From Rhodospirillum centenum SW (lineage in GTDB: Bacteria; Pseudomonadota; Alphaproteobacteria; Azospirillales; Azospirillaceae), in the NCBI RefSeq assembly GCF_000016185.1, contig NC_011420.2, positions 3,511,001 through 3,575,000 of the forward strand: DNA of 64,000 nucleotides, read 5' to 3'. Positions 35,726 through 49,839 of this stretch are shown one piece after another (position 1 is the first letter of the stretch; every line of letters begins with the position of its first letter). The translations under genes and the position numbers were made by a program. The notes beneath the pieces are model-generated. The model was not told where the DNA came from and did no database searches. It saw nothing but the letters and a program-made list of their open reading frames with translations.

Positions 35726-37567
35726 ATGACCCGTCTTCTGGCGACCACGGCGCTTGCCGTGGTGATGGCGTCGGTGGCCGCCCCGGCCCTGGCGCAGCAG
35801 CGCAGCTACTCCTCGATCGTCGTCTTCGGCGACAGCCTCAGCGACACGGGCAACCTGCCGGCCCCCCTGCGGCCCGGCGCGCCCTATGTCGGTGGCCGCT
35901 TCTCCAACGGACCCGTCTGGGCCGAACAGCTCGGCACCCTGCGCGGCACGCCGGTGCAGAGCGTCGCCCTGGGCGGTGCCCGCTCCGGCCGGGTGCAGCC
36001 CATCGACCTCCAGTTCCAGCTCGACCAGTATCTCGCGGCGCGGCCGCAGCTCAGCGGCGATGCGCTCTACGCCGTCTGGATCGGCGGCAACGATTATCTG
36101 GCCTATGCGTCCAACCCCGTGGGCGATCCGTTCCAGGTGGTCGGCACCACGGTGGGCAACACCGTGGCCGGGGCCACCCGGCTGATCCAGGCGGGGGCGC
36201 GGAACCTGATCGTGCTGGGCCTGCCCGACCTGGGATCGACGCCCGGCGTGGCGGCGAACGGCTCCGCCGCGGCGGCGCAGGCCAGCCAGATCACCGACGT
36301 CCACAACGCCAATCTGCAACAGGCCGTGCGTTCCCTGCGCGCCGGCACCGGCGCCAGCATCACCTATGTGGACATCGGGGCGCTGATCCGCTCGGTGGTG
36401 GCCGATCCCTCGGCCTACGGGCTGTCCAACGTGACCGTGCCCTGCCTGGGCACCAGCGGCCCGACCGGCGCCTGCGCCACGGCGGACGCGGCGGCGGCGA
36501 CGCTGTTCTTCGACCCGATCCATCCGACCGTGACGGGGCACCAGGGCATCGCCCAGTACGTCAACGGCACCTTCGCCGCGCTCTACGACGCGCCGGCGGC
36601 CTATGTCGCCACCAGCCAGCTCGGCCTGCGCCTGTTCGAGCTGGCGGCCCAGGGGGTGCAGTCGCGCATGGCCGCGGCCCGCACCGGCCGCGGCGATGTC
36701 GGCCTGCTGGGCTCGGCCCGGGCGGGGGCGGACGGGCGGTACGGCCTCTATGCCTTCGGCGGCTATGTGGACGGCGAGCGCGACCGTATCCCCGGTCAGT
36801 TCGGCTATGACTACGATGCCTGGAACGTGGGCGCCGGGCTCGACTACCAGGTGGACGAGAACTTCCTGGCCGGCATCGCGCTGGGCTATGCCGACGGCTC
36901 GCTGGATCTGGAGGGCGGCGCCGGCTCGGCCGACGCCAAGTCCTACAGCGTCCAGATCTATGGCACGGCCGCCTGGGGCCCGTGGTACGCCGACGGCAGC
37001 ATGGGCTACAGCTACGAGGATTACGGCACCCTGGAGCGGTCCACCCGCTTCGCGCCCTATCCCCTGGCCGAGGCGGATACGGACGGCAGCACCTACGGCC
37101 TGTCGGGCCGGGCGGGCTACGTCATCCAGGCCGGAGGCTTCGGCATCGGGCCGGAGGTCGGGCTGCGTTACCTGAACACCGAAGTCGAGGGCTTCACCGA
37201 GGAGGATGCCGGGCCGCTCGCCCTGACCGTGGAGCGCAGCCGGGCGGAATCCCTGATCGGCTCCCTGGGCGTGCAGGCATCCGGCCGCTTCGGGGATGAC
37301 GGACTGGCCGTCGTGCCCGCCCTCGGCCTCGCCTACGAGCACGAGTTCCTGGGCGACGGCCGCAGCCTCACGGCGCGGCTGGCGAACGGGGAGGTCGGGA
37401 TGACCGAGGTCGGGGCCGGCGACCGTGGCCGGATCGTGCTGGATGCCGGCGTGACGGTGGAGACGGCGGCCGGCCTGCTGCTCTCCGTCGGCTACAGGGG
37501 CGAACCGTTCGGCGGCAGCGACCGCGAGGACCACGCCGTCGTCGGCCGGGTGCGGATCGGCTTCTGA
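35726..37567 (+). CDS. autotransporter esterase/lipase with GDSL (SGNH) passenger
   Basis: 613 aa. Signal peptide (residues 1-23, ending ALA), then a GDSL hydrolase with block I FGDSLSDTGN (about 33-42), block III GGNDY and block V DPIHPT holding the Asp-His pair. From about 330 to the end comes a type Va autotransporter beta-barrel ending VVGRVRIGF, a C-terminal Phe as required for outer-membrane insertion. This is the architecture of EstA-type esterases, which stay anchored on the cell surface and hydrolyse short or medium acyl esters. Monocistronic, with a GGAGG ribosome binding site (gtggaggaagcccaagg). Confidence 0.93.
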   Translation: MTRLLATTALAVVMASVAAPALAQQRSYSSIVVFGDSLSDTGNLPAPLRPGAPYVGGRFSNGPVWAEQLGTLRGTPVQSVALGGARSGRVQPIDLQFQLDQYLAARPQLSGDALYAVWIGGNDYLAYASNPVGDPFQVVGTTVGNTVAGATRLIQAGARNLIVLGLPDLGSTPGVAANGSAAAAQASQITDVHNANLQQAVRSLRAGTGASITYVDIGALIRSVVADPSAYGLSNVTVPCLGTSGPTGACATADAAAATLFFDPIHPTVTGHQGIAQYVNGTFAALYDAPAAYVATSQLGLRLFELAAQGVQSRMAAARTGRGDVGLLGSARAGADGRYGLYAFGGYVDGERDRIPGQFGYDYDAWNVGAGLDYQVDENFLAGIALGYADGSLDLEGGAGSADAKSYSVQIYGTAAWGPWYADGSMGYSYEDYGTLERSTRFAPYPLAEADTDGSTYGLSGRAGYVIQAGGFGIGPEVGLRYLNTEVEGFTEEDAGPLALTVERSRAESLIGSLGVQASGRFGDDGLAVVPALGLAYEHEFLGDGRSLTARLANGEVGMTEVGAGDRGRIVLDAGVTVETAAGLLLSVGYRGEPFGGSDREDHAVVGRVRIGF

Positions 37568-37601: not shown

Positions 37602-38237
37602 TCAGCGCTCCGTCCGCTCCGCCGTCTGGGTCAGGGTGGGCTTCAGGCGCAGCACGGGTACGCCGTCATGCACCCTGTCCCCCACCTCGACCAGCACCGC
37701 GGTGACCGTGCCGTCGGTCTCCGCCGTCAGCATGGTGCGGTCCATCAGGGCGCGGGCCTGATCCAGCGCGGCATGGGCGTCGCGCAGGCGCTGCCGGGCC
37801 AGGGCCGCGTCCGCCCGGCGGGCCTCCAGCGCGTCGGCGTCGGCGCGGCCGTCGCGCAGCAACGCCGCTGTCAGGCGCACCGCACGGGCGGTACGGTCGG
37901 AGTCCGCCGCGGCTGCGGCCAGCGCATCCTCGGCGGCGCGGACCGACTGGTAATAGGCGACCGAGTCGAGTTCGAGCAGAAGCTGGCCCTTGCCCACCTG
38001 GTCGCCGACGGCCACATGCCGCCCGGCAACCGTGCCGGGAACGCGGAAGGCAACCGCCCCTTCCCCTGCGGCGAGGGGCTGCACCACGGCTGTTCCGTCG
38101 GGCCGGAGCTCGGCCCGGGCGGCGGCGGATGCCAGCAGAAGCGCGCCGGCCAGCAGAAGGCCGGCACCGGCTGCGCGCCGCGGGAGCCACGGGCAGGGCT
38201 GCGCAAAAGCGTTGGAAGCGACGGCGGGAACGGACAT
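37602..38237 (-). CDS. short periplasmic adaptor (HlyD/RND membrane-fusion type)
   Basis: 211 aa. An N-terminal signal or anchor (about 20-42), the first half of a biotinyl-lipoyl domain (VAFRVPGTVAGRHVAVGDQVGKGQLLLELDS), a helical hairpin (about 92-170) and the second lipoyl half (LTAETDGTVTAVLVEVGDRVHDGVPVLRL). The beta-barrel and membrane-proximal domains of normal adaptors (about 350-400 aa) are missing. No RND or ABC pump is next to it. It is divergent from the TetR gene and shares its operator region, so it may be a TetR target; a partner could be the MMPL transporter 1 kb beyond tetR, which is only an inference. Confidence 0.75.
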   Translation of the reverse strand: MSVPAVASNAFAQPCPWLPRRAAGAGLLLAGALLLASAAARAELRPDGTAVVQPLAAGEGAVAFRVPGTVAGRHVAVGDQVGKGQLLLELDSVAYYQSVRAAEDALAAAAADSDRTARAVRLTAALLRDGRADADALEARRADAALARQRLRDAHAALDQARALMDRTMLTAETDGTVTAVLVEVGDRVHDGVPVLRLKPTLTQTAERTER

Positions 38238-38366
38238 TCTGCCCTCCGGCTTACGCCGCCCGGTCGGACGGGCGGAGACTGCGGGATCAAGGTGCGGGTC
38301 GGAGTACGCGCGGGCAGCGCCCGTTGCCTAGGTCCGCACCGCTCTGGTACGCTGGGTACAGTAACT

Positions 38367-38409
38367 TGAACGCTGATAACTTACCGGGCGTGAAACTTAT
38401 CATCGTTCA
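38367..38409. promoter_or_regulatory. inverted-repeat operator candidate for the TetR regulator
   Basis: Arms TGAACGCTGATAA (38367-38379) and TTATCATCGTTCA (38397-38409) are reverse complements at 12 of 13 positions with a 17-bp spacer. AACTT occurs three times in or beside the site (38363, 38378 and 38395 regions). It lies in the AT-richest part of the 198-bp divergent promoter region between the adaptor and tetR genes, 27 bp before the tetR start: the place expected for autoregulation. Confidence 0.65.
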
Positions 38410-38435
38410 TATGAGCGTCAAGGGGGAAGCGACAG

Positions 38436-39206
38436 GTGGTCGCAAGAGCGCGTGTGAAGCACGAGGACGGGCCGGGCGGCATCGCTGAAACCGTCGCTGA
38501 AACCGTTGTGGGAACCGTGGCGGACCCGGCCGGAGCCGGTCCCGGCGACACGTCCGGGGCTGCCGCCGGAAGCCGCCCCTACCGCAAGCGCAAGGGCGAA
38601 GGCCATGTCCGGCGGGACGAGATTCTGACCGCGGCCCAGCGCATCTTCATCGAGGACGGTTTCGAGCAGGCGACGATCCGCAAGATCGCCGCGCGGGCCG
38701 GCATCTCACCGACCGCTCTCTACCTCTATTTTCCGGACAAGCAGACGATCCTGGAAGAGCTGTGCGAGCACGCCTTCGCCAAGCTGGTGCAGCGGATGGA
38801 TGCCATCCTGGCCGGGGGCGGCGGCGCCCTGGACAAGGTGCGCCGGATCATGCGCGCCTACATCGACTTCGGCCTTGAGCATCCCGACGAGTACCGCCTG
38901 ACCTTCATGGTCAAGGCGCTGGGCCGGATGTCGGTTGACCATCGTGATCCCGGCGCCCGCCAGCCCGGCCAGCCGGGCTACAGCGGGCCGCAGGCCTATG
39001 CCCGGCTGCGCGACGCCATGGCCGACCTGATCGCGGAGACCGGGGCGGACGGCCAGGATGTCGATCTGGCGACCGAGGTCATCTGGATGAGCGGGCACGG
39101 CCTCGTCTCGCTCATGATCGGCAACTCCCCCCGCTTCCGGACGCACAAGGAGGAACTGGTGGAGGCCCTGATCCGGACCCAGCTCTACGGCATCCTGCGG
39201 CGCTGA
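38436..39206 (+). CDS. TetR/AcrR-family transcriptional regulator
   Basis: 256 aa. GTG start at 38436 behind AGGGGGAAG. An unusual N-terminal tail of about 55 residues, Thr/Glu/Val/Ala-rich with repeats (AETVAETVVGTV), precedes the HTH: RRDEILTAAQRIFIEDGFEQATIRKIAARAGISPTALYLYFPDKQTILEELCEHAF. The C-terminal ligand domain (about 115-256) is of the fatty-acid/multidrug type with FGLEHPDEYRLTFM. It probably represses its own promoter and the divergent adaptor; convergent orientation to the DUF1302/DUF1329/MMPL genes makes control of those uncertain. Confidence 0.92.
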   Translation: MVARARVKHEDGPGGIAETVAETVVGTVADPAGAGPGDTSGAAAGSRPYRKRKGEGHVRRDEILTAAQRIFIEDGFEQATIRKIAARAGISPTALYLYFPDKQTILEELCEHAFAKLVQRMDAILAGGGGALDKVRRIMRAYIDFGLEHPDEYRLTFMVKALGRMSVDHRDPGARQPGQPGYSGPQAYARLRDAMADLIAETGADGQDVDLATEVIWMSGHGLVSLMIGNSPRFRTHKEELVEALIRTQLYGILRR

Positions 39207-39240
39207 CGCTTCGCGCGCGACGGGAACCCCGGAAATGCCG

Positions 39241-39272
39241 ACGGCCGCGGAGGGCATCCCCTCCGCGGCCGT
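39241..39272. terminator. bidirectional terminator hairpin between tetR and the MMPL gene
   Basis: A perfect 14-bp stem (39241-39254 with 39259-39272) and a CATC loop sit between two convergent genes, 35 bp from each stop. The T content after the hairpin is modest on both strands (TCTGCATCC on plus, CGGCATTTCC on minus). Confidence 0.7.
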
Positions 39273-39308
39273 TCTGCATCCGGGTGGATGGCCCGGGCGC
39301 GCGGTGCG

Positions 39309-41675
39309 TCAATGCTGGGCGAAGGTCCGCCTGGAGGCGCGCTCCACCTCCTTCTCGAACAGTCGCGGGAAGCGGCTGTAGAGCAGCGAGGCCACGGCCG
39401 GCAGCAGGATCACCGCCCCCACCATGTTGGCCAGGAAGATGAAGGTCAGCAGCACGCCCATGTCCGCCTGGAACTTCAGGTCGGAGAAGGCCCAGGTGGC
39501 GGTGCCCACGGCCAGGGTGATGCCGGTGAACAGCACCGAGCTGCCGGTCTCCTGCAGGGTGCGGAAATAGGCCTCCGCGAAGGTCAGCCCGTGCTTCAGG
39601 TACGCCTGGAGCCGGTTGAAGATGTAGAGCCCGTAATCCACGCCGATGCCCACCCCCAGCGCCGCCGCCGGCAGGGTGGAGATCTTCAGCCCGATCCCCA
39701 GCACCGTCATCAGCGCGTTGCACAGGATCGACACGACGATCAGCGGCAGCACCGTCGCCAGTGAGCCGACCAGCGAGCGGAAGGTGATCAGGCAGAAGAG
39801 CACCACCGTGGCGTAGACCAGCCCCAGCATGGGCTTTTCCGCCTCGCGCACGGCCTCGTTGGTGGCGGCCATGACGCCGACATTGCCCGTCGCCAGCCGG
39901 AACCGCACCTCGTCCGACGGGTTCGCCTTCACATAGCCTTCCACCGCCTGGACGATGCGGTCGATCGTTTCCGCCCGGTGATCCACGGTGTAGATCACGA
40001 CCGGCATGACCGAGCAGTCGGCATTCAGCAGTCCGGTCGATGTCTCGATCGGGGTGACGGTCCGTACCAGGACCTGGCTGTTCCGCGGCAGCACCTGCCA
40101 GTTCAGGTTTCCCTCGTTCCAGCCGGTGTTGACCCCCTTCATCACCGTGGACAGGGAGAAGGCGGACTGCACCCCCGGCACATTGCTCATGTGCCAGGTG
40201 AAATCGTCGATCTGGCGGATCACGCCATAATCGATGCAGCCGTTCGCCGGCGCCTCCGCGATCACCTGGATCACGTCGGTGCCGATGCTGAAGCGGTCCA
40301 CGATCAGGGCGGCGTCCCGGTTGTAGCGGGAGTCCGGCCACAGTTCCGGCACGCCCGCCTCGGTATCGCCGATGGTCATGTCCTTCTGGATGTAGAAGGA
40401 CCCGCCCAGAACCAGCAGTGCTGCCAGCACCATGGGCACCGCCCCCTTGGGCGTCGCCAGCACGGCGATGCGCCGCCAGAGCGGGTCGAAACGGTCTACC
40501 TGCCCGGCGACGCGGGCGCGATAACGCTCGTCCAGCGGCAGGTAGCTCAGCAGCACCGGCAGGATGAACAGATGGGTCAGGATGATGATGACCATGCCCA
40601 CCGAGGCGGAAACGGCCAGTTCCTGGATCATCCGGATCTGGATGATGGCGATGGTCAGGAAGCCCAGCGCATCCGTCACCAGCGCCGAGGAACCGGGGAT
40701 CAGCAGGCGTTCGAAGCTGATGCGGGCTGCCGTATAGGCATCGGCACCGCGGCCCATCTCCTGGCTGATGGTGCCGATGTTCTGGACGCCGTGGCTGACG
40801 GCGATGGCGAAGACCAGGAACGGCACCAGGATGGACAGCGGGTCGATGCCGAACCCCAGCAGCACCAGCATGCCGAACTGCCAGACCACCGTGGTCAGCG
40901 ACACCAGCAGCATCACCGCCATCATCATGAAGGAGCGGCCGTAGCCGTAGACCAGCAGGGCCGTGATGACGAAGGCGATGACGAAGAAGGTGACGACGCT
41001 GGAGGCGCCGTCGGCGATGTCGCCGATCGACTTGGCGAAGCCGATGATGTGGATGTCGATCTTCCCGTCGGCATGGCGGGCGCGGATGGCCTCCAGCTTG
41101 TCGGCCACGGCCTGGTAGTCCAGCTTCTCGCCGGTGCGCGGATCCCGCTCGATCAGTTGCGCGCTGACCAGGGCGGCATCGAACTTCTCCCCCACCAGCC
41201 GGCCGACCGTGCCCGACTTCAGCACGTTCTCCCGCACGACGGGCATCCACTCCTCGGTCGGCTGGAACTCCGCCGGGATGACGTTGCCGCCGGAGAAGCC
41301 CTCCGCCGTGATCTCCACGAAACGCACGTTCGGCGTGAACAGACTGGTCACGCTGGCGCGGTCCACGCCGGGGATGAAGAACACCTCGTCGGTGACCTTC
41401 TTCAGCCGCGCCATGAAGTCGGGAGTGTAGATGTCGCCCTCGTCCACCGACAGGGCGACGACGATCCGGTTCGCGCCGCCGAACTCCTGCTGGTAGGTGA
41501 GGAACGTGTCCATGTAGGGGTGGTCGATCGGCAGCATCTTCTCGAAGCCGGCATCGACCCGCAGCTTGGCGGCATTCCAGCCCATGAAGAGGGTGGCCAG
41601 CGCGAACAGGACCAGGAGCAGCGCCCGGTTCCGGAACACGAGCCCTTCGAGGTTCTGGAGGAACGGTGTGGACAT
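39309..41675 (-). CDS. MMPL/RND-family transporter
   Basis: 788 aa. Duplicated RND layout: an N-terminal helix (about 17-35), a first periplasmic domain (about 36-225), five to six helices, then a helix (about 405), a second periplasmic domain (about 425-615) and six helices to the end. Sequences such as FVIAFVITALLVYGYGRSFMMMAVML and LPAAALGVGIGVDYGLYIFNRLQAYLKHG (with the conserved GVGVDYG-type motif) are typical of MMPL/HpnN-like lipid exporters rather than drug-efflux AcrB, and the protein is shorter than AcrB. It is the last gene of a set with DUF1302, DUF1329 and YCF48 proteins. I infer movement of a hydrophobic molecule across the envelope, driven by proton gradient. Confidence 0.88.
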   Translation of the reverse strand: MSTPFLQNLEGLVFRNRALLLVLFALATLFMGWNAAKLRVDAGFEKMLPIDHPYMDTFLTYQQEFGGANRIVVALSVDEGDIYTPDFMARLKKVTDEVFFIPGVDRASVTSLFTPNVRFVEITAEGFSGGNVIPAEFQPTEEWMPVVRENVLKSGTVGRLVGEKFDAALVSAQLIERDPRTGEKLDYQAVADKLEAIRARHADGKIDIHIIGFAKSIGDIADGASSVVTFFVIAFVITALLVYGYGRSFMMMAVMLLVSLTTVVWQFGMLVLLGFGIDPLSILVPFLVFAIAVSHGVQNIGTISQEMGRGADAYTAARISFERLLIPGSSALVTDALGFLTIAIIQIRMIQELAVSASVGMVIIILTHLFILPVLLSYLPLDERYRARVAGQVDRFDPLWRRIAVLATPKGAVPMVLAALLVLGGSFYIQKDMTIGDTEAGVPELWPDSRYNRDAALIVDRFSIGTDVIQVIAEAPANGCIDYGVIRQIDDFTWHMSNVPGVQSAFSLSTVMKGVNTGWNEGNLNWQVLPRNSQVLVRTVTPIETSTGLLNADCSVMPVVIYTVDHRAETIDRIVQAVEGYVKANPSDEVRFRLATGNVGVMAATNEAVREAEKPMLGLVYATVVLFCLITFRSLVGSLATVLPLIVVSILCNALMTVLGIGLKISTLPAAALGVGIGVDYGLYIFNRLQAYLKHGLTFAEAYFRTLQETGSSVLFTGITLAVGTATWAFSDLKFQADMGVLLTFIFLANMVGAVILLPAVASLLYSRFPRLFEKEVERASRRTFAQH

Positions 41676-41729
41676 GGTGAGGCGTCTTTCCGGGAACCGG
41701 GCGTCAGGGGGGCGGCAGGCGGCGCAGCA

Positions 41730-42731
41730 TCAGTGGATCGCCGCGGGCGGGCCGGTCATCAGCACGCCGTCCTGGCCGAACAGGATCAGACTGCCGTCCG
41801 GCGCCTCGATGGCCTCGGCCAGGGCGATGCGGTCGGGCCGCTGCTCCAGCGTGAAGCTGCGGCCCTGGTCGGTGCTGGTCAGCACGATGCCCTGCATCCC
41901 CACCAGCACCACGCGCCCGTCCGACAGCCGGGTGCCACCCAGCAGCCCCGCGGTGGAGCGGTTCTCCACCGCGGTCCAGGTCGCGCCGGCATCCGTGCTG
42001 CGGTAGATGTTGCCCTGCAGGCCGAAGACGAGCACCGTCTCCGGCCCCACCGCCAGCGCACCGAAGTAGGACCCCTCATAGGGTGTCTGCATGGCCTCCC
42101 AGGTCCGGCCGCGGTCCCGGCTGACATGGGCCATGCCGAACTCTCCCGCGATCAGCCGCAGGTCGGGCGTGGGGGCGATGATGGCGTTCAGGTGGTAGTC
42201 ATCCTCCTCGATCCGGCGCCGGGTCCAGGTCCGGCCGCCGTCGTCGGTCTCCAGGAACAGGCCGTAGGCGCCCACGGCCATGCCATGCTGCGGGTCGTCG
42301 AACAGCACGTCCATCAGCGGCAGTTCCCAGTCCGGCGCCGCGTGCTGGAGTGTCCAGCTTTCGCCGCCGTCGCCGGTGTGCAGGATCACGCTGTCGTGCC
42401 CGACGGCCCAGCCGTTGCGGGCATCCACGAAGAAGACGCCGGTCAGGGCGGAATCGACCGGAACCGGCATCTGCCGCCAGGTCCGGCCGTTGTCGTCGGA
42501 CAGCAGGATGTGCCCGCGCTGGCCGACGGCGACCAGACGGTCGCCGGCACGCGCGGCGTCCAGCAGCAGCGAGCGGACGGCAAGGGGCGCCAGCGCCGCC
42601 GGCTTGAGGCTGTCGGCCTGAACCGGCGGCGGGGCGGCGGCAGCGGGCCCCTGCTGGGCCAGGGAGGGCATGGCGATGCCCAGGGCGAAGGCTGCGGCGG
42701 CCAGAGCCGCCGGGGCGCGGAATGGGGTCAT
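41730..42731 (-). CDS. YCF48/Asp-box beta-propeller protein (exported)
   Basis: 333 aa. Signal peptide to about residue 26 (SLAQ), then six Asp-box-like repeats: DDNGRTW, GDGGESW, DDGGRTW, DRGRTW, TDAGATW and TDQGRSF, each followed by a beta-blade with WAVGHDS/MAVGAYG-type turns. This is the fold of the photosystem II assembly factor YCF48/HCF136 family; in non-photosynthetic gene sets such proteins accompany DUF1302/DUF1329/RND genes. Likely periplasmic scaffold or assembly factor for the transporter. Starts about 70 bp after the DUF1329 stop, beyond a terminator hairpin. Confidence 0.85.
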   Translation of the reverse strand: MTPFRAPAALAAAAFALGIAMPSLAQQGPAAAAPPPVQADSLKPAALAPLAVRSLLLDAARAGDRLVAVGQRGHILLSDDNGRTWRQMPVPVDSALTGVFFVDARNGWAVGHDSVILHTGDGGESWTLQHAAPDWELPLMDVLFDDPQHGMAVGAYGLFLETDDGGRTWTRRRIEEDDYHLNAIIAPTPDLRLIAGEFGMAHVSRDRGRTWEAMQTPYEGSYFGALAVGPETVLVFGLQGNIYRSTDAGATWTAVENRSTAGLLGGTRLSDGRVVLVGMQGIVLTSTDQGRSFTLEQRPDRIALAEAIEAPDGSLILFGQDGVLMTGPPAAIH

Positions 42732-42755
42732 GGCACCCTGTTCTTCCTACGAAGG

Positions 42756-42785
42756 AAAAGGGCCGGCCGGTTTCCCGGCCGGCCC
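42756..42785 (-). terminator. Rho-independent terminator inside the DUF1302-MMPL set
   Basis: A perfect 11-bp stem (42760-42770 with 42775-42785) with a four-base loop is followed on the minus strand by TTTTCC (42759-42754). It lies 15 bp after the DUF1329 stop and 25 bp before the YCF48 start, so it should reduce transcription of the YCF48 and MMPL genes relative to DUF1302 and DUF1329. Confidence 0.75.
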
Positions 42786-42799
42786 GTCGGCTGCGTGGG

Positions 42800-44140
42800 T
42801 CAGCGCACCCCCGCCCGCCTCAGGGAGTCCGGGGCGAAGTCCGCCGCCGTGTAGTCCTGGTCGAAGCGGTAGGGCGGCTCCTGGTTGTCGAAGCCGTTGC
42901 AGGTGTAGCGCCCCGACGGCAGGTCGTAGGTGCATTCCAGCGTCGTATTGTAGCCCGGCAGATCATAGTAGTTGATGCCGTGGCTTTCGCTCACACGCCA
43001 GATCTGGTCGCGGACGTCATAATTGTCGGCCGCCAGGATGACCCAGCTGTCCTCGTCGATGTAGAAGCGACGCTTGGCGTAGACATGGCTGGTGCCAGGG
43101 CGCACCGTGCCGTCCACGACCCAGACCCGGTGCAGTTCGTAGCGGGTCAGATCCTGGTTGATATGGCGCGGCTTGATGATCTGGTCATAGCTGAGATCGC
43201 CGCTGTGCAGCTTGTAGGAGTTGTACGGCACGTACATCTCCTTCCGGCCGACGAGCGTCCATTCATAACGGTCGGGCGACCCGTTGAAGACGTCGAGCTG
43301 GTCGTTGGTGCGCAGCCCGTCCGACGCCGTGCCGGGGTTGTCGTAGGCGACGTTCGGGGCGCGGCGGACACGGCGCTGGCCCGGATTGTAGGTCCAGGCC
43401 GAGCGCGGTTCTTCCACCTGGTTGATGGTGTCGTGGACCAGCAGGATCTCGCCTGCCAGCCGGGCCGGCGCCACCACTTCCTGAAGGAAGAACAGGGCCA
43501 GGTTGCCGTCCGCCCCCTCCGGACGGGAGTACAGGTACTTCACCTTCTCCGTCAGGGTGATCATGGTATAGGCGCCGTTGGCCTGCGGATTCGCCTGGCC
43601 GTACTGGCGGAACACGTTCAGGCCGCGCCAGCGCAGCAGGTGATTCCAGACCGCTTCAACGCCTTCCTTGGGGATCGGGAAGGGAATGCCGGTCTTCGCC
43701 TCCAGCACGCCGTTGCCACCGGGGGCCAGCTTCGCCGTCCCGGCATTCTTCACGGTGGCGTCATAGATGAACTGCGGCGCCGAGGCGCTGCGGCGCGTCG
43801 GGTAGACCGGCAGCCTGTAGGTATCCGGATAGGTCTTGAGCAGGGCCTTCAGGCCGTCGGGCAGCTTGTCCGCATACTTGTCCATGTTCTCCGAGGTGAT
43901 GGTGAACAGGGGCTTGTCGTCCGCGAACGGGTCGATGTGCTGCTTGCCGGGGGTGTAGCCCGGGGGCGGGGCGGTGATGCCGCCCGTCCATTCCGGGATG
44001 CTGCCGTCGGCATTGCCGGCCTTGATCGCCCCCATGGGGGTGAGCGTCTTGCCGAGGTCCGATGCGGTCTGCGCCTGTGCCGGCAGGGCCAGGGTGATGG
44101 CCAGCGCACCGCCGAGCAGCGCGGCCTTAACGCGATTCAT
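42800..44140 (-). CDS. DUF1329 domain-containing exported protein
   Basis: 446 aa. Signal peptide ending AQAQ (about residue 24), then the DUF1329 pattern: LTPMGAIKAGNADGSIPEWTGGI, GYTPGKQHIDPFADDKPLFTITSENMDKYADKL, PGQRRVRRAPNVAYDNPGTASDGLRTNDQLDVFNGSPDRYEW and RRFYIDEDSWVILAADNYD. The C-terminal part has an antiparallel beta character like LolA/LolB-type lipoprotein carriers, which suggests lipid or hydrophobic ligand binding in the periplasm (inference). Excellent ribosome binding site (aaggaggagacttc). It follows DUF1302 by 46 bp. Confidence 0.88.
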   Translation of the reverse strand: MNRVKAALLGGALAITLALPAQAQTASDLGKTLTPMGAIKAGNADGSIPEWTGGITAPPPGYTPGKQHIDPFADDKPLFTITSENMDKYADKLPDGLKALLKTYPDTYRLPVYPTRRSASAPQFIYDATVKNAGTAKLAPGGNGVLEAKTGIPFPIPKEGVEAVWNHLLRWRGLNVFRQYGQANPQANGAYTMITLTEKVKYLYSRPEGADGNLALFFLQEVVAPARLAGEILLVHDTINQVEEPRSAWTYNPGQRRVRRAPNVAYDNPGTASDGLRTNDQLDVFNGSPDRYEWTLVGRKEMYVPYNSYKLHSGDLSYDQIIKPRHINQDLTRYELHRVWVVDGTVRPGTSHVYAKRRFYIDEDSWVILAADNYDVRDQIWRVSESHGINYYDLPGYNTTLECTYDLPSGRYTCNGFDNQEPPYRFDQDYTAADFAPDSLRRAGVR

Positions 44141-44186
44141 GAAGTCTCCTCCTTTTTATTCGGTCCTTCCTGGCTCTTTCCGGCCG

Positions 44187-46337
44187 TTAGAAGGAGTACT
44201 TGACACTGACCGAGACGAAGTCGCGGTCGCGGATCAGGTTGCGCTGCCCGGCACCGAAGAAGGTCGAGTAGCTGATGTCCGCGGTCCACTTCTCCAGATA
44301 GAGCGCGCGCAGGCCGAAGCTCAGCGCCTTGCGCCCTTCGACGAAGTTACCGATCGGACCCGGCGTCACGCCGTTGACGTCGTGCTGCCAGGAGATGGAG
44401 GGCGACAGGTTCACGCCCGAGAACGCATTCAGGTAGTCGAAGCGCGCCGTCATCCGGTAGCCCCAGGAGAACCGGGTGGCGAAGCCATCCTCCACCGCCG
44501 GACCGGGGGCGGCGCCGCCCGCACCGGACTCCGCGAAGGCCGGGATGTAGGAGCGGTCGGTGCCCGGCCCGTCCAGACGGTACTCGTCCGCCCCCGGGAA
44601 GCCATGGACATAGTTGAAGCCGAACTCGCCCAGCAGCACCCACTGGTCGGCGCCGACCATCGGGCCGAACGCCTTGGTCGCCGTGAACTGGAGCTGAGAG
44701 ATGTCGAAGAACTCGTAGCCCTGGAGCGTGCTGCCGAAGAAACGGCTGGCACTGGTCACGGGGTCGTTCAGGTCGATACCGCCCAGCCGCTGGATCATCG
44801 GGTACTGGTTGAACAGGGCGGCCGCCTGACGCGCACCGGCCAGCGCCCCCGCCTGGGCACCCGCCTGCAGGGCCGCGGCATAGCTGGCGGGGCCGCCCTG
44901 CGACGCGATGGCCGCCTGTACCTGACCCTGCACCGCGCCCGGCAGGCTGGTGAAGGAGGTGCCGACCAGCGACGGCGCGGCCACGGCCAGCACCCGGTTG
45001 ACGGCCGCCTGATACTGCGACTGCGCCGCGGCCTGCCCGGCCGTCTGGCCCGACGCCGCGGCGCCCAGCACGGCCGGGGCGGCGAAGGTGGACTGCAACA
45101 GCTCCACATCGTCCAGCGCCAGCGGCTGGTCCTTGCGGAACGAGTATTCCGCCTGGAAGGAGATGCCGGCGGGCAGGGTCGTGTTCAGGCTCAGGCCGAA
45201 GAGCTGGATGTCCTCCGGATAGACCAGCCGGTAGCCGCTGGCCTCGGAGAAGGGGGCGGCCTGCGGGTTGGCGGCGAAGCGGTAGAAGTCGGACTGCGTG
45301 CCGACGATCGTCTCCAGCACCGGCAGGCGGGAATGGTAGTTGATGTAGTAGGCGCCGAACTCGGTGTTGCCCAGATCCGGCGAGAAGTAACGCGCGGCGA
45401 AGCCGAACTGGCCGCTGTCGCTCGGCTGGTCGTCCTCCAGCCGCGGCACGCGCGAGCCGACGGAGGCCGCCGCGTTCACGACCGAGCGGTCGATGTCCGG
45501 GATCAGCGGGTTGCCGAAGCCCAGCAGCAGGTAACGCGCGCCGGGCGAGCCCGAGTCCGTCGTGCTGAAGAAGCTGTTGGCGGCTTCCGGCTCCGTCTGG
45601 TCCCACTTGAACTGGTAGAAGGCTTCCAGGCTGAAATTGTGGCCGAGGCTCAGGGAGACGTCGGCGATCGGCACCGGCAGGAAGGATTCCTTCAGCTCCG
45701 AGCCCGGGATGCGCAGGGCGGAGACGTCGATCGGGTTGATCGTGTTGATGCCGTTGGCGATGAAGGTGCTCTCGCCCCAGCTCAGCACCTGGTTGCCCAG
45801 GCGGACGTCAAGGCCGGCATCGTCACCCAGGCTGAAATTGCCGTAGACCAGCGCATCCAGCAGCTTGAAGTCGCGCCCGACCCGCTCCACCGCCTCGCCG
45901 TCCAGCGGGAAGCGGCCGGTGCGCGCGAAGTCCGTGCTGTCCTTGTCGGCGTTGACGACATCGTAGAAGTAGGTGGCGCGGACGAAGGCGCCCAGATTCC
46001 GGTAGTTCAGCTTCAGCTCGTGCAGGGCACGGCCGGTCAGCGAGACAAGGCCCTTGTCGTAGTTCAGGTTGCCGTTGTCGCCATTGTGCGAGTTGAAGGT
46101 ACCGCCGTTGACCCGCGCGATGATGCTTTCGTCGCGGTCCTGCACGCGGAACAGCGCGCCCAGGGTCAGGGTCGTGTCGAAGCTGCCGGTCAGCTCGCCG
46201 CGGTTGAACTGCACCGCCTGCGCGCTGCCCGCTGCCAGCAGCGGGGCCAGCAGGGCCGCGGCGCTGGCGCCGGCCAGCATGCGGCGGTTGAGCCTGCGAC
46301 GATGTGGACGGATTTCGGGCGTGATCGTGCGTGCCAT
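44187..46337 (-). CDS. DUF1302 family protein, predicted outer-membrane channel
   Basis: 716 aa. The ATG at 46337 has the best ribosome binding site of the region (gaggaggaaacgcc). Signal peptide to about residue 43 (GSAQA), then the DUF1302 features: FNRGELTGSFDTTLTLGALFRVQDRD, LGNQVLSWGESTFIANGINTINPIDVSALRIPGSELKE, and a beta-strand pattern ending VSVSVKYSF with the C-terminal Phe of outer-membrane barrels. An Ala/Gln/Gly-rich block of about 95 residues (about 416-512) interrupts the family pattern, probably an extended loop. First gene of the DUF1302-DUF1329-YCF48-MMPL set. Confidence 0.88.
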   Translation of the reverse strand: MARTITPEIRPHRRRLNRRMLAGASAAALLAPLLAAGSAQAVQFNRGELTGSFDTTLTLGALFRVQDRDESIIARVNGGTFNSHNGDNGNLNYDKGLVSLTGRALHELKLNYRNLGAFVRATYFYDVVNADKDSTDFARTGRFPLDGEAVERVGRDFKLLDALVYGNFSLGDDAGLDVRLGNQVLSWGESTFIANGINTINPIDVSALRIPGSELKESFLPVPIADVSLSLGHNFSLEAFYQFKWDQTEPEAANSFFSTTDSGSPGARYLLLGFGNPLIPDIDRSVVNAAASVGSRVPRLEDDQPSDSGQFGFAARYFSPDLGNTEFGAYYINYHSRLPVLETIVGTQSDFYRFAANPQAAPFSEASGYRLVYPEDIQLFGLSLNTTLPAGISFQAEYSFRKDQPLALDDVELLQSTFAAPAVLGAAASGQTAGQAAAQSQYQAAVNRVLAVAAPSLVGTSFTSLPGAVQGQVQAAIASQGGPASYAAALQAGAQAGALAGARQAAALFNQYPMIQRLGGIDLNDPVTSASRFFGSTLQGYEFFDISQLQFTATKAFGPMVGADQWVLLGEFGFNYVHGFPGADEYRLDGPGTDRSYIPAFAESGAGGAAPGPAVEDGFATRFSWGYRMTARFDYLNAFSGVNLSPSISWQHDVNGVTPGPIGNFVEGRKALSFGLRALYLEKWTADISYSTFFGAGQRNLIRDRDFVSVSVKYSF

Positions 46338-46710
46338 GGCGTTTCCTCCTCGCTCCACGTTTCTCTTTTTCGCCCGCGTTTGTTGGGGGCGCCGGAACGG
46401 AGGCAGCCCGATTTGCGGGAATTTCAAGGCTGTAGCAGTAAAGGCTGGCGTGCGCCTGCGTCAAGGTCTCTATGCCCGGAATGCAGGGCTCCGGCCCCGC
46501 CGGACAGGGTTCCGGAGCGTCCTTGAAAAGTCTGTCCGCACTGTGGATGTCAGCCGGCTGCCCCGTAAGTGCTTGATTCAAGGCTCCGTTGCATAAAGGG
46601 ACCGGCCCGGCCGGAAGCCCGGCCCGGCGCTCCGCCGGCAACCGGGCCAGAACTGGGGCCGAGTCGGGGCGAGACCGCGGGGCGGGCGCGGCCCCGTCGG
46701 CTGCAGGGGG
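46338..46710. other. 373-bp promoter region upstream of the DUF1302 gene
   Basis: No gene. On the minus strand TTGACG (46464-46459) and TTACTG (46441-46436) are 17 bp apart, a moderate sigma-70-like promoter about 100 bp before the DUF1302 start. The rest, up to the stop of the GGDEF/EAL gene, is GC-rich without clear structure. Confidence 0.4.
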
Positions 46711-49533
46711 TCAGCTCGCGGCCTGGTTGCGCGCCGGCCGCAGGCAGCGGGCTTCCAGTTCGGCCGCCGGAACCGGAAAGCCGATGAGGAAGCCCTGTGC
46801 CTCGTGGCAGCGGTGCCGGCGCAGGAAATCGAGCTGCTCCTGCGTCTCGATCCCCTCTGCCACCACGGTCAGGCCGAGCTGCCGGCCCATGGCGATGATG
46901 GTGGCGGCGATGGCCCCGGTATCGGCGTTGCTGGGCGCCTCGCTGACGAAGGAGCGGTCCACCTTCAACGTCGTGATCGGCAGCCGGCGGAGATAGGAGA
47001 GCGAGGAGTAGCCGGTGCCGAAATCGTCCACGGCGATGCGGATGCCGCGGCCGCGCAGTTCCGCCAGCCCGTCGGCGATGAAGGCCATGTTGGACATCAT
47101 GGCCGTCTCTGTGATCTCCAGCTCCAGCAGATCGGGCCGCACGCCGTACTCGTCCAGCAGGGACTGGATGCGGTCGGCGAAGTGGCTGGAGGTGATCTGG
47201 CGGACGGAGACGTTGACGGCGACCGGCAGCGGCTCCAGCCCGGCGCGCTCCCAGCGATTGATCTGCTCCAGCGCGGCGCGCAGCACCCAGTCGCCGATGG
47301 CCAGGATCATGCCCGTCTCCTCCGCCACCGGGATGAAGGTGGAGGGCGGGATCATGCCCATCTCCGGATGGCGCCAGCGCAGCAGCGCCTCCACGCCCAC
47401 CGTCTGCATCGTCTCCAGGCTGGCCTTGGGCTGGTAGTGAAGCTCGAACTGCCCCTGGTCGATCGCCTCGCGCAGGGCGTGCTCCAGCGACAGCCGGGCC
47501 ACGGCCGCCTCGTTCATCTCCGGCGTGAAGAAGCGGTAGCCGTTGCCGCCGGCCGACTTCGCCGTGTGCATGGCGGTGTCCGCATCGCGCAGCAGGGCGC
47601 CGATGTCGGTGGCGTCGCCGGGGAAGAGCGTGATGCCGATGGAACAGGTGATGAAAAGCTGCTGTCCGTCCAGGCCGAAGGGCTGGGACAGGCCGGCCAG
47701 CACCGTCTCGGCCACGCGGGCGGCCATCTGCGGTTCCGTCAGATCCTCCGCGATGATCAGGAACTCGTCCGCGCCCAGCCGGCCGATGGTATCGGCCGGG
47801 CGGACGGAGCTGGCCAGCCGCTGCGAGATGGCGCGCAGCAGCTTGTCGCCGACCTGGTGGCCCAGGCTGTCATTGACCAGCTTGAAGCGGTCCAGGTCCA
47901 GCAGCAGCACCGCGACCGAGTTGCCCTTGCGTTCGGCCTGGTCGGCGGCATGCTGGAGCCTGTCCTGCAACAGGGTGCGGTTCGGCAGCCCGGTCAGCGG
48001 GTCATGGGTGCTGACATACATGAGCTGCTCTTCGAACCGCTTGCGGTCCGTGACGTCCGTCATGGTTCCGGTGATCCGCACGGGGCGGCCCCGGTCGTCC
48101 CGGATCGCCTGTCCGCGCGCCTCGATCCAGATCAGGGAGCCGTCGCGGTGACGCAGCCGGTAGAAGGCGTGGTAGTCGCCGGATTTCCCGGCCAGATAGC
48201 GTTCGATCTGCGCCAGTGCGGCTGGCCGGTCGTCGGGATGCAGGATCTCGCGGAACAGCAGGTCGGCCTGACCCGGCGGGCTGCCCTCGTAGCCCAGCAT
48301 CTCGATGAACTCCGGGCTCCACCAGAAGATGCCGTTGGCGTAGTCCACGTCGAACACGCCCGATCGGGTGGCGCGCACGGCCAGCTTCAGCCGCTCCTCG
48401 CTGTCGCGCAGGGCCTGCTCCGCCTGCTTGCGGCGGGTGATGTCCTGCACCACGCAGATGGCCGTGCGGCGGTCGCCCAGCCGCATCTGGCTGACGCCGA
48501 AGGCCATGCTGAAGGTCACGTTCCGGCCGGTCCGGCCCTGGATCTCCGACCAGGTTTCGCGCCGCCGCCCGTCGCCGCTCTGGCGCAGGCAGGCCATCAG
48601 CGCCATCGCCACGCGGGTCCAGTCTCCCTCGTCGATCAGGGTGACGAAGGGTTTGCCCACGACATCGGCGGCGGCATGGCCGAACAGCTCCAGCGCCGCC
48701 CGGTTCATCGTCTCGATCCGCAGATCCTCGTCCAGCGTGATGATGCCGTCGGCGACGTTGTCCATGATGCCGGACAGCCGCGTCTCGCGCTCGCGCAGGG
48801 CGGCCTCCGCCCGCCGGCGTTCGACCAGCGAGCGGTCGAACTGGGTCAGCAGGTCGTTGGTGATGCGTGCCAGCAGGCCCAGCTCGTCGTCGGCATGGTG
48901 CGACGGCACCGTCAGCGGCCGGCCGGCCGGCTGGGCCGGATCGACCTCTGCGATGGCGCCCGCCAGCCGCAGGAAGGGCTTGGTGATGCTGAGATAGAGC
49001 ATCACCGCCAGCGCCGTCGCCAGCCCCAGCATCCACAGCGCGCTGGTCGCCAGCACCAGCTCCGCCCGGCGGAAGAAGTCGGCGGCGATGACGTAGCGGT
49101 CGATGCTGACCCGCAGCTCGCCCACCCGCAGCTCCTCCGCCCGGCGGACGATCAGGGGGATGGCGAAGGACTTCTCGTGCGGCAGCAGCAGTTCCGCCAG
49201 CCACTTCAGCCGCCCCTCGGTCGGCAGCCGCTCCTTCGAGGCCAGGACGTTGCCCAGATCCTCATAGATCGCCGCGCGGTAGACCGGCCGGTAGGCGAAC
49301 AGCCCGGTGATGACCCGTTCCGCCAGCGCCTGATCGAAGGAATAGGCGGCCTCGGCCGCCGGCTCCTCCAGCGTGGACAGGACCTGCTTCACGAGCTGGT
49401 CCGTCTGCTTCTCCATGTCCAGCAGGTCCAGGGCGATCTGGACCGAACTGAGGAACAGGCCCAGCACCAGGGTGAAGACCAGGGTATTGCGGGCCTGCTT
49501 GTAGGACAGCCGCTTGCGCAACGGGATCTTCAT
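46711..49533 (-). CDS. membrane PAS-GGDEF-EAL protein, likely cyclic-di-GMP phosphodiesterase
   Basis: 940 aa. Two helices (about 16-38 and 168-192) frame a periplasmic sensor domain; a HAMP-like linker (about 195-250), two PAS domains (about 255-370 and 385-505), GGDEF and EAL domains follow. The GGDEF site reads LGADEF (Ala for the second Gly), which may abolish cyclase activity. The EAL site is complete: VEALLRWRHPEMG, NVSVRQ, LELEITETAMM, VDDFGTGYSSLSYLRRLPITTLKVDRSF and AEGIETQEQLDFL. Phosphodiesterase activity, possibly GTP-modulated, is the likely role. The start is uncertain: ATG 49533 lacks a purine-rich site, GTG 49650 is the alternative. Confidence 0.9.
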   Translation of the reverse strand: MKIPLRKRLSYKQARNTLVFTLVLGLFLSSVQIALDLLDMEKQTDQLVKQVLSTLEEPAAEAAYSFDQALAERVITGLFAYRPVYRAAIYEDLGNVLASKERLPTEGRLKWLAELLLPHEKSFAIPLIVRRAEELRVGELRVSIDRYVIAADFFRRAELVLATSALWMLGLATALAVMLYLSITKPFLRLAGAIAEVDPAQPAGRPLTVPSHHADDELGLLARITNDLLTQFDRSLVERRRAEAALRERETRLSGIMDNVADGIITLDEDLRIETMNRAALELFGHAAADVVGKPFVTLIDEGDWTRVAMALMACLRQSGDGRRRETWSEIQGRTGRNVTFSMAFGVSQMRLGDRRTAICVVQDITRRKQAEQALRDSEERLKLAVRATRSGVFDVDYANGIFWWSPEFIEMLGYEGSPPGQADLLFREILHPDDRPAALAQIERYLAGKSGDYHAFYRLRHRDGSLIWIEARGQAIRDDRGRPVRITGTMTDVTDRKRFEEQLMYVSTHDPLTGLPNRTLLQDRLQHAADQAERKGNSVAVLLLDLDRFKLVNDSLGHQVGDKLLRAISQRLASSVRPADTIGRLGADEFLIIAEDLTEPQMAARVAETVLAGLSQPFGLDGQQLFITCSIGITLFPGDATDIGALLRDADTAMHTAKSAGGNGYRFFTPEMNEAAVARLSLEHALREAIDQGQFELHYQPKASLETMQTVGVEALLRWRHPEMGMIPPSTFIPVAEETGMILAIGDWVLRAALEQINRWERAGLEPLPVAVNVSVRQITSSHFADRIQSLLDEYGVRPDLLELEITETAMMSNMAFIADGLAELRGRGIRIAVDDFGTGYSSLSYLRRLPITTLKVDRSFVSEAPSNADTGAIAATIIAMGRQLGLTVVAEGIETQEQLDFLRRHRCHEAQGFLIGFPVPAAELEARCLRPARNQAAS

Positions 49534-49839
49534 CAGGGGGGGAGCCGGATGCAGTTCCCCTGCAACCGGGCCGGCGGGTTCCTCCCCCGGCGTCGGCGGA
49601 AGACCGCCGTCCTGCGTTTGCGCAGGAAAAGAAGCGTCCGATGCCCGCACCGTGCTGTGACCCGTCCCCCGTGTGCGTCCTTGAGACTAGACTGCCATCT
49701 CCGGTTTGGACATGACAATCGTGTTAACCGGTTCGGAGGGCACAGGGCGACGTGCCGGCGCAGGGGCCCCGCGCAGGTAACCGTCGCGCACCGCGCGGTC
49801 GTTTGCTAGGAGAGCGGAAGAGCTGAGCGGAGGAGTGGT
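49534..49839. other. 306-bp divergent region between GGDEF/EAL and ycjX
   Basis: No gene. An AT-richer centre (49690-49735) contains a dyad CCGGTT (49701-49706) / AACCGG (49726-49731) with a 19-bp spacer, and the palindrome AACCGGTT. It may hold promoters for both sides. Confidence 0.35.

Follow-up and report, generated by a model that had tools for sequence, protein, structure and literature searches.

An AmeABCD-type gene cassette beside a surface esterase gene in Rhodospirillum centenum, a possible trans-envelope carrier of long-chain acyl compounds

The AmeABCD system of Castellaniella defragrans brings together four proteins: AmeA (DUF1302), AmeB (DUF1329/LolA), AmeC (a COG4447 propeller) and AmeD, a 787-aa permease belonging to a lineage of HAE3 RND proteins that is separate from HpnN. 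Deletion of ameABCD lowers monoterpene tolerance (PMC6394551). A related set occurs in Pseudomonas putida, where growth on Tween 20 requires each of PP_0765 (DUF1302), PP_0766 (DUF1329), PP_2018 and PP_2019, and where AlphaFold contact scores, some of them weak, connect these proteins (PMC10866462). The 'nanopod' cluster of the benzene degrader ORM2a includes highly expressed DUF1329, YCF48-related and MMPL proteins for which transport of a hydrophobic substrate has been proposed, and a DUF1329 protein of Delftia is needed on phenanthrene (the latter as cited in PMC13101534, which describes the former). We have analyzed a four-gene cassette of this kind in Rhodospirillum centenum SW, within a 64,000-nucleotide stretch of contig NC_011420.2 (positions 3,511,001 to 3,575,000; hereafter the window) of a 4.36-Mb single-contig genome. 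Our reading, which we hold to be about as probable as its negation, is that the cassette encodes an AmeABCD-type trans-envelope carrier, the cargo of which would be long-chain acyl compounds that secreted esterases release at the cell surface. The cassette genes are:

44187-46340, minus strand: DUF1302 outer-membrane beta-barrel (AmeA-like), first cassette gene; Pfam PF06980, 583 bits
42800-44140, minus strand: DUF1329 periplasmic LolA-like carrier (AmeB-like); Pfam PF07044, 522 bits, and Pfam LolA_like, 39 bits
41730-42731, minus strand: exported YCF48/Asp-box beta-propeller (AmeC-like); Pfam PSII_BNR, 105 bits, with phmmer matches to Ycf48 (8am5, 2xbg)
39309-41675, minus strand: MMPL/RND permease, putatively of the AmeD/HAE3-like lineage, 788 aa; Pfam MMPL, 97 bits

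Transcription runs in the order DUF1302, DUF1329, YCF48/PSII_BNR, MMPL, with spacers of 46, 68 and 54 bp, and the N-termini of the first three proteins read as apparent signal peptides. The coordinates and Pfam matches confirm the four same-strand genes of a preliminary description of this DNA. That account offered them as a candidate system, but the type has already been published. The same four families stand in the same gene order as in ameABCD, and the permease is of almost the same length as AmeD (788 against 787 aa); judged by family, order and length, the run is a member of the AmeABCD type (PMC6394551). It differs in that no terpene genes are seen nearby, a gene for a GDSL autotransporter esterase adjoining instead, and in that the DUF1302 protein carries a 130-residue helical insert. 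The P. putida system is alike in using DUF1302, DUF1329, a periplasmic protein and an RND-type transporter, there for growth on an acyl ester, but its genes lie in two separate loci rather than one collinear run (PMC10866462). The ORM2a cluster shares the DUF1329, YCF48-related and MMPL proteins, whereas it has additional universal stress protein genes, a benzene context, and an outer-membrane member described no further than as a hypothetical, porin-like protein (PMC13101534).

How consistently do the four genes keep company? With the permease alone as query, 80 loci were fetched, 69 of them with enough upstream DNA, and in 60 of these 69 all four genes are present in the same order and on the same strand. 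One of the nine exceptions (L077) also has all four, its DUF1329 match being split into two pieces. The other eight are without DUF1329 at the locus: six are Nitrospirillum-type loci (L009-L014), and at the remaining two (L032 and L038) DUF1302 is not found nearby either. All eight genomes have a strong DUF1329 match elsewhere. The off-locus Nitrospirillum copy groups with the cassette DUF1329 of the Azospirillaceae in a tree, and so the gene looks displaced rather than lost.

A second comparison covered 144 alphaproteobacterial genomes, counting strong matches only (DUF1302, E<1e-15; DUF1329, E<1e-40; permease, E<1e-60). The permease is present in 22 of them. It occurs together with DUF1302 in 19 genomes against 3.2 expected (hypergeometric p ~1e-18, which ignores phylogeny) and with DUF1329 in 21 against 3.5 expected, while DUF1302 and DUF1329 occur together in 21 of 21 (p ~3e-23, once again ignoring phylogeny). 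Thus the recurrence of the four families that the preliminary description had claimed lies far above chance. Plasmid-borne copies show the four genes in four arrangements, the order of the window being kept in L082, L083, L085 and L086, and therefore the linkage outlasts rearrangement; in several records the plasmid copies are surrounded by catabolic genes. The closest named relatives of the permease are in the Azospirillaceae, for example in Niveispirillum, Oleisolibacter, Nitrospirillum and Indioceanicola.

The R. centenum genome has a single DUF1302. It has a second DUF1329 gene outside the window (G000:C1:3680322-3681407; L103 6305-7663), the product of which is 67% identical to that of the cassette; a gene for an enoyl-CoA hydratase lies on the same strand ~240 bp downstream.

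The structures predicted for the first two proteins are consistent with passage of a hydrophobic molecule across the envelope. The AlphaFold2 model of DUF1302 (pLDDT 87, pTM 0.83) has an apparent 18 long strands by a count of its secondary-structure elements; the turns that follow even strands are short and the loops that follow odd ones long. Its Foldseek matches are Occ porins and AlgE, at a TM-score of ~0.5 by target length, supporting a barrel that is without a close structural match and bearing out the barrel fold of the earlier prediction. In Pfam the protein matches PF06980 only, and there is no match to the FadL/TodX family PF03349. Residues 411-540 of the model form the helical insert, which is rich in Ala, Gln and Gly and probably sits in an extracellular loop. 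The insert is 130-165 residues long in the window and in the 13 core Azospirillaceae loci, and 17-70 in the rest. At L002, the closest relative, the region has 66 residues, though the permease there is 81% identical.

DUF1329 gave a model of comparable quality (pLDDT 89, pTM 0.89), for which Foldseek found LolA3 (9tp6; E 2e-14, TM-score 0.82 by target) and the solved DUF1329 structure 4z48. The protein is accordingly predicted to have a LolA-type fold. The LolA fold shields lipids in a pocket. The carrier reading is thus supported by the match of gene set and order to ameABCD, by the LolA-like DUF1329 and by the DUF1302 barrel. A system spanning inner membrane, periplasm and outer membrane with a hydrophobic cargo, as originally suggested, is likely on this evidence and on the recurrence of the four families.

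The permease shares the general MMPL/RND plan of the hopanoid transporter HpnN. Its best NCBIfam model is nevertheless HAE3 (TIGR00921), at 159 bits and below the 352-bit cut-off, while against the HpnN model TIGR03480 it scores 62 bits where the cut-off is 752. Across the whole genome no protein exceeds the TIGR03480 cut-off, the best stretch reaching 37 bits. On these scores we reject a hopanoid/HpnN function, and with it an early hint in that direction. A broader possibility is that the cassette delivers an endogenous lipid, hopanoid or other, to the outer membrane in a role unlinked to growth substrates. The MMPL family does move lipids, and genes for glycerol-3-phosphate acyltransferase (GPAT) stand beside the cassette in L033 and L036. 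Yet no protein of the genome scores above the HpnN threshold, and the cassette is both patchy (the permease being in 22 of the 144 alphaproteobacteria) and plasmid-borne, unlike envelope housekeeping. We regard this explanation as improbable.

An unusual motif marks the permease lineage. Residues S294, H295 and Q298 (S-H-x-x-Q) in transmembrane helix (TM) 4 and D680-Y681 in TM10 are invariant in 88 of 88 permease sequences, and a profile alignment of the N-terminal against the C-terminal half places S294-H295 opposite D680-Y681. MmpL3 has D-Y at both positions. From this alignment the lineage retains one relay Asp, the other being replaced by Ser-His, and H295 may carry protons. HpnN is set apart from it both by the score and by this TM4 S-H, where the C-terminal half has D-Y.

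What might the cargo be? The preliminary description held that the substrate could not be guessed from context. The context is in fact informative. The window itself has, beside the cassette:

35726-37567, plus strand: GDSL-lipase autotransporter (surface esterase), a putative functional partner; Pfam Autotransporter, 179 bits, and Lipase_GDSL, 91 bits, with GDS, GND and DPIHP motifs

In 12 of the 13 core Azospirillaceae loci (L003-L014 and L052, the exception being L004) the permease gene is followed, at a distance of 0.1 to 1.7 kb, by a GDSL autotransporter gene, though these loci share descent. Among 39 relatives searched, the nine genomes of the family with a permease identity of at least 69% are exactly the nine with a full-length GDSL ortholog of at least 41%; in two of them (G159 and G162) the permease and the ortholog are on different contigs. 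This co-presence is suggestive, the nine genomes possibly representing one clade.

More distant loci have other enzymes of acyl lipids as neighbors. In L023, L025, L029 and L053, which come from two phyla, the gene for a VolA-like lipase (Lipase_bact_N) either stops 14-21 bp short of DUF1302 or overlaps with that gene. A gene for an acyl-CoA ligase lies within ~210 bp of the cassette in L020 and L027, the GPAT genes of L033 and L036 adjoin it, as does an Ntn acylase gene in L041, and a DUF4442 gene adjoins it in some other loci. The lipase arrangement has a parallel in Vibrio, where the gene for the surface lipase VolA is beside that for the outer-membrane lipid transporter FadL; in four relatives here the VolA-like lipase is directly upstream of DUF1302. 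FadL, however, belongs to a barrel family other than DUF1302, and it functions with neither a periplasmic carrier dedicated to it nor an RND partner. Taking these neighbors together with the Tween phenotype in P. putida, we favor long-chain acyl compounds as the cargo.

In the proposed scheme the adjacent GDSL autotransporter esterase would free long-chain acyl compounds (fatty acids or lysolipids) at the cell surface. The hydrophobic molecule would pass the outer membrane through the DUF1302 barrel and be ferried across the periplasm by the LolA-like DUF1329. At the inner membrane it would be moved by the MMPL permease, which would draw on the proton gradient and have the YCF48 propeller as a presumed periplasmic partner. 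Support for this scheme comes from the need for the P. putida genes on Tween 20, the co-presence of the GDSL esterase in nine genomes and the acyl-lipid neighbors elsewhere; the second DUF1329 beside an enoyl-CoA hydratase, the plasmid copies amid catabolic genes and the retention of DUF1329 in all eight genomes add to it.

Several observations weigh against this scheme. Characterised RND/HAE3 proteins mostly move their cargo outward. The counted acyl-lipid families make up 13 of 138 genes near the cassette and 2 of 144 farther away, but the corresponding p of 0.002 is too optimistic as the families were picked after viewing the near set, and none of them is beside the cassette in the Rheinheimera and Opitutaceae loci. 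A FadL homologue (a PF03349 protein) is encoded elsewhere in the genome, which rules out the cassette as the only outer-membrane route for fatty acids. Moreover AmeABCD itself has been read as an efflux system, its mutant being less tolerant and showing higher Nile Red influx (PMC6394551).

The cassette could be an outward export or tolerance pump that picks up toxic hydrophobic compounds (solvents, terpenes or excess fatty acids) at the inner membrane or in the periplasm and sends them out through DUF1302, as proposed for AmeABCD. We consider this a serious possibility, if appreciably short of even. The case rests on the habit of the RND family and on the reading of AmeABCD: transfer by LolA-type carriers and by characterised members of HAE3, HpnN among them, is from the inner membrane to the outer one, and the catabolic plasmids provide settings with toxic aromatics. 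The lower monoterpene tolerance of the ameABCD mutant fits an efflux role, although the Nile Red difference came from cells treated with carbonyl cyanide m-chlorophenylhydrazone (CCCP), weakening the interpretation as active efflux (PMC6394551). Against an outward pump, P. putida needs the related genes for growth on Tween 20 (PMC10866462), and the neighboring genes encode lipases and an acyl-CoA ligase or GPAT, enzymes for liberating fatty acids and for using them afterwards. Because of these lipase and ligase neighbors and the growth phenotypes we slightly favor inward over outward transfer. A fully specified version of acyl uptake, in which the esterase and the Ame-type RND system form one proton-driven route comprising a DUF1302 with its clade-specific insert, DUF1329 and an MMPL permease with a Ser-His/Asp-Tyr relay working inward, opposite to the usual RND direction, is unlikely as a whole.

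The system itself is ordinary, and its use is as a lead: the cargo hypothesis is specific and can be tested. Found widely, also on catabolic plasmids, the four families are still mostly named as of 'unknown function'. With esterase, ligase and acyltransferase genes as neighbors, the loosely defined 'hydrophobic substrate' becomes a concrete proposal, long-chain acyl compounds. The invariant S-H/D-Y motif supplies residues for mutation, and the competing directions of uptake and efflux are separable by simple uptake assays. What is new here is the acyl-cargo context, the exclusion of the TetR regulator and adaptor described below, the asymmetric permease motif, the retention of DUF1329 elsewhere, and the predicted folds with the Azospirillaceae insert.

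Between the esterase gene and the cassette there are three further features:

38436-39206, plus strand: TetR regulator, judged not to be part of the cassette
37602-38237, minus strand: truncated periplasmic adaptor, 211 aa, judged not to be part of the cassette
38367-38409, no strand assigned: inverted repeat TGAACGCTGATAACTT / AACTTATCATCGTTCA between the TetR and adaptor genes, a likely TetR operator

The preliminary description had associated the regulator and the shortened adaptor with the system. Both are present, and they could in principle complete a pump of six parts, with the short adaptor as a bridge to the permease. In the window as in L002 the two lie close to the cassette, which would fit such an assembly. 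At the same site, however, L002 has in a row a TetR gene, a full-length adaptor of 372 aa and its own 1044-aa RND pump gene, whereas the window retains TetR and 211 adaptor residues with no RND pump gene following; the full-length adaptor and adjoining pump gene of a tripartite HAE1-type RND pump are thus absent here. The TetR/adaptor pair is beside the cassette in only 2 of 15 family loci, the window counted. The inverted repeat, of 16 bp, has no second copy within the window. We therefore give the six-part pump hardly any credence and, in view of the intact operon of L002, reject the two proteins as parts of the system. Given that complete operon and the single inverted repeat, the short adaptor looks like what is left of a separate TetR/adaptor/RND efflux operon, and it is this operon that TetR most probably regulates. 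We likewise reject regulation of the cassette by the neighboring TetR, the likely operator having no copy upstream of DUF1302.

Some minor features complete the region. No sigma-70-like promoter was found by a scan of the cassette region. A possible partial terminator lies within the cassette:

42760-42785, minus strand: terminator-like GC hairpin with a T-rich tail between DUF1329 and YCF48 (scan)

This hairpin is weak, the scan giving 2 overlapping sites where 3.8 were expected from shuffles. A strong GC hairpin, GACGGCCGCGGAGG...CCTCCGCGGCCGTT, lies at 39207-39308 between the convergent MMPL and TetR genes and is probably a terminator shared by the two. On the strand of the cassette and immediately upstream of it is a PAS/GGDEF/EAL gene (46711-49650), which is kept in 12 Azospirillaceae loci and has a relative in L038. 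Conservation of this upstream position is confined to the Azospirillaceae, L038 being the only outside match, and the gene is treated as local synteny rather than as part of the cassette.

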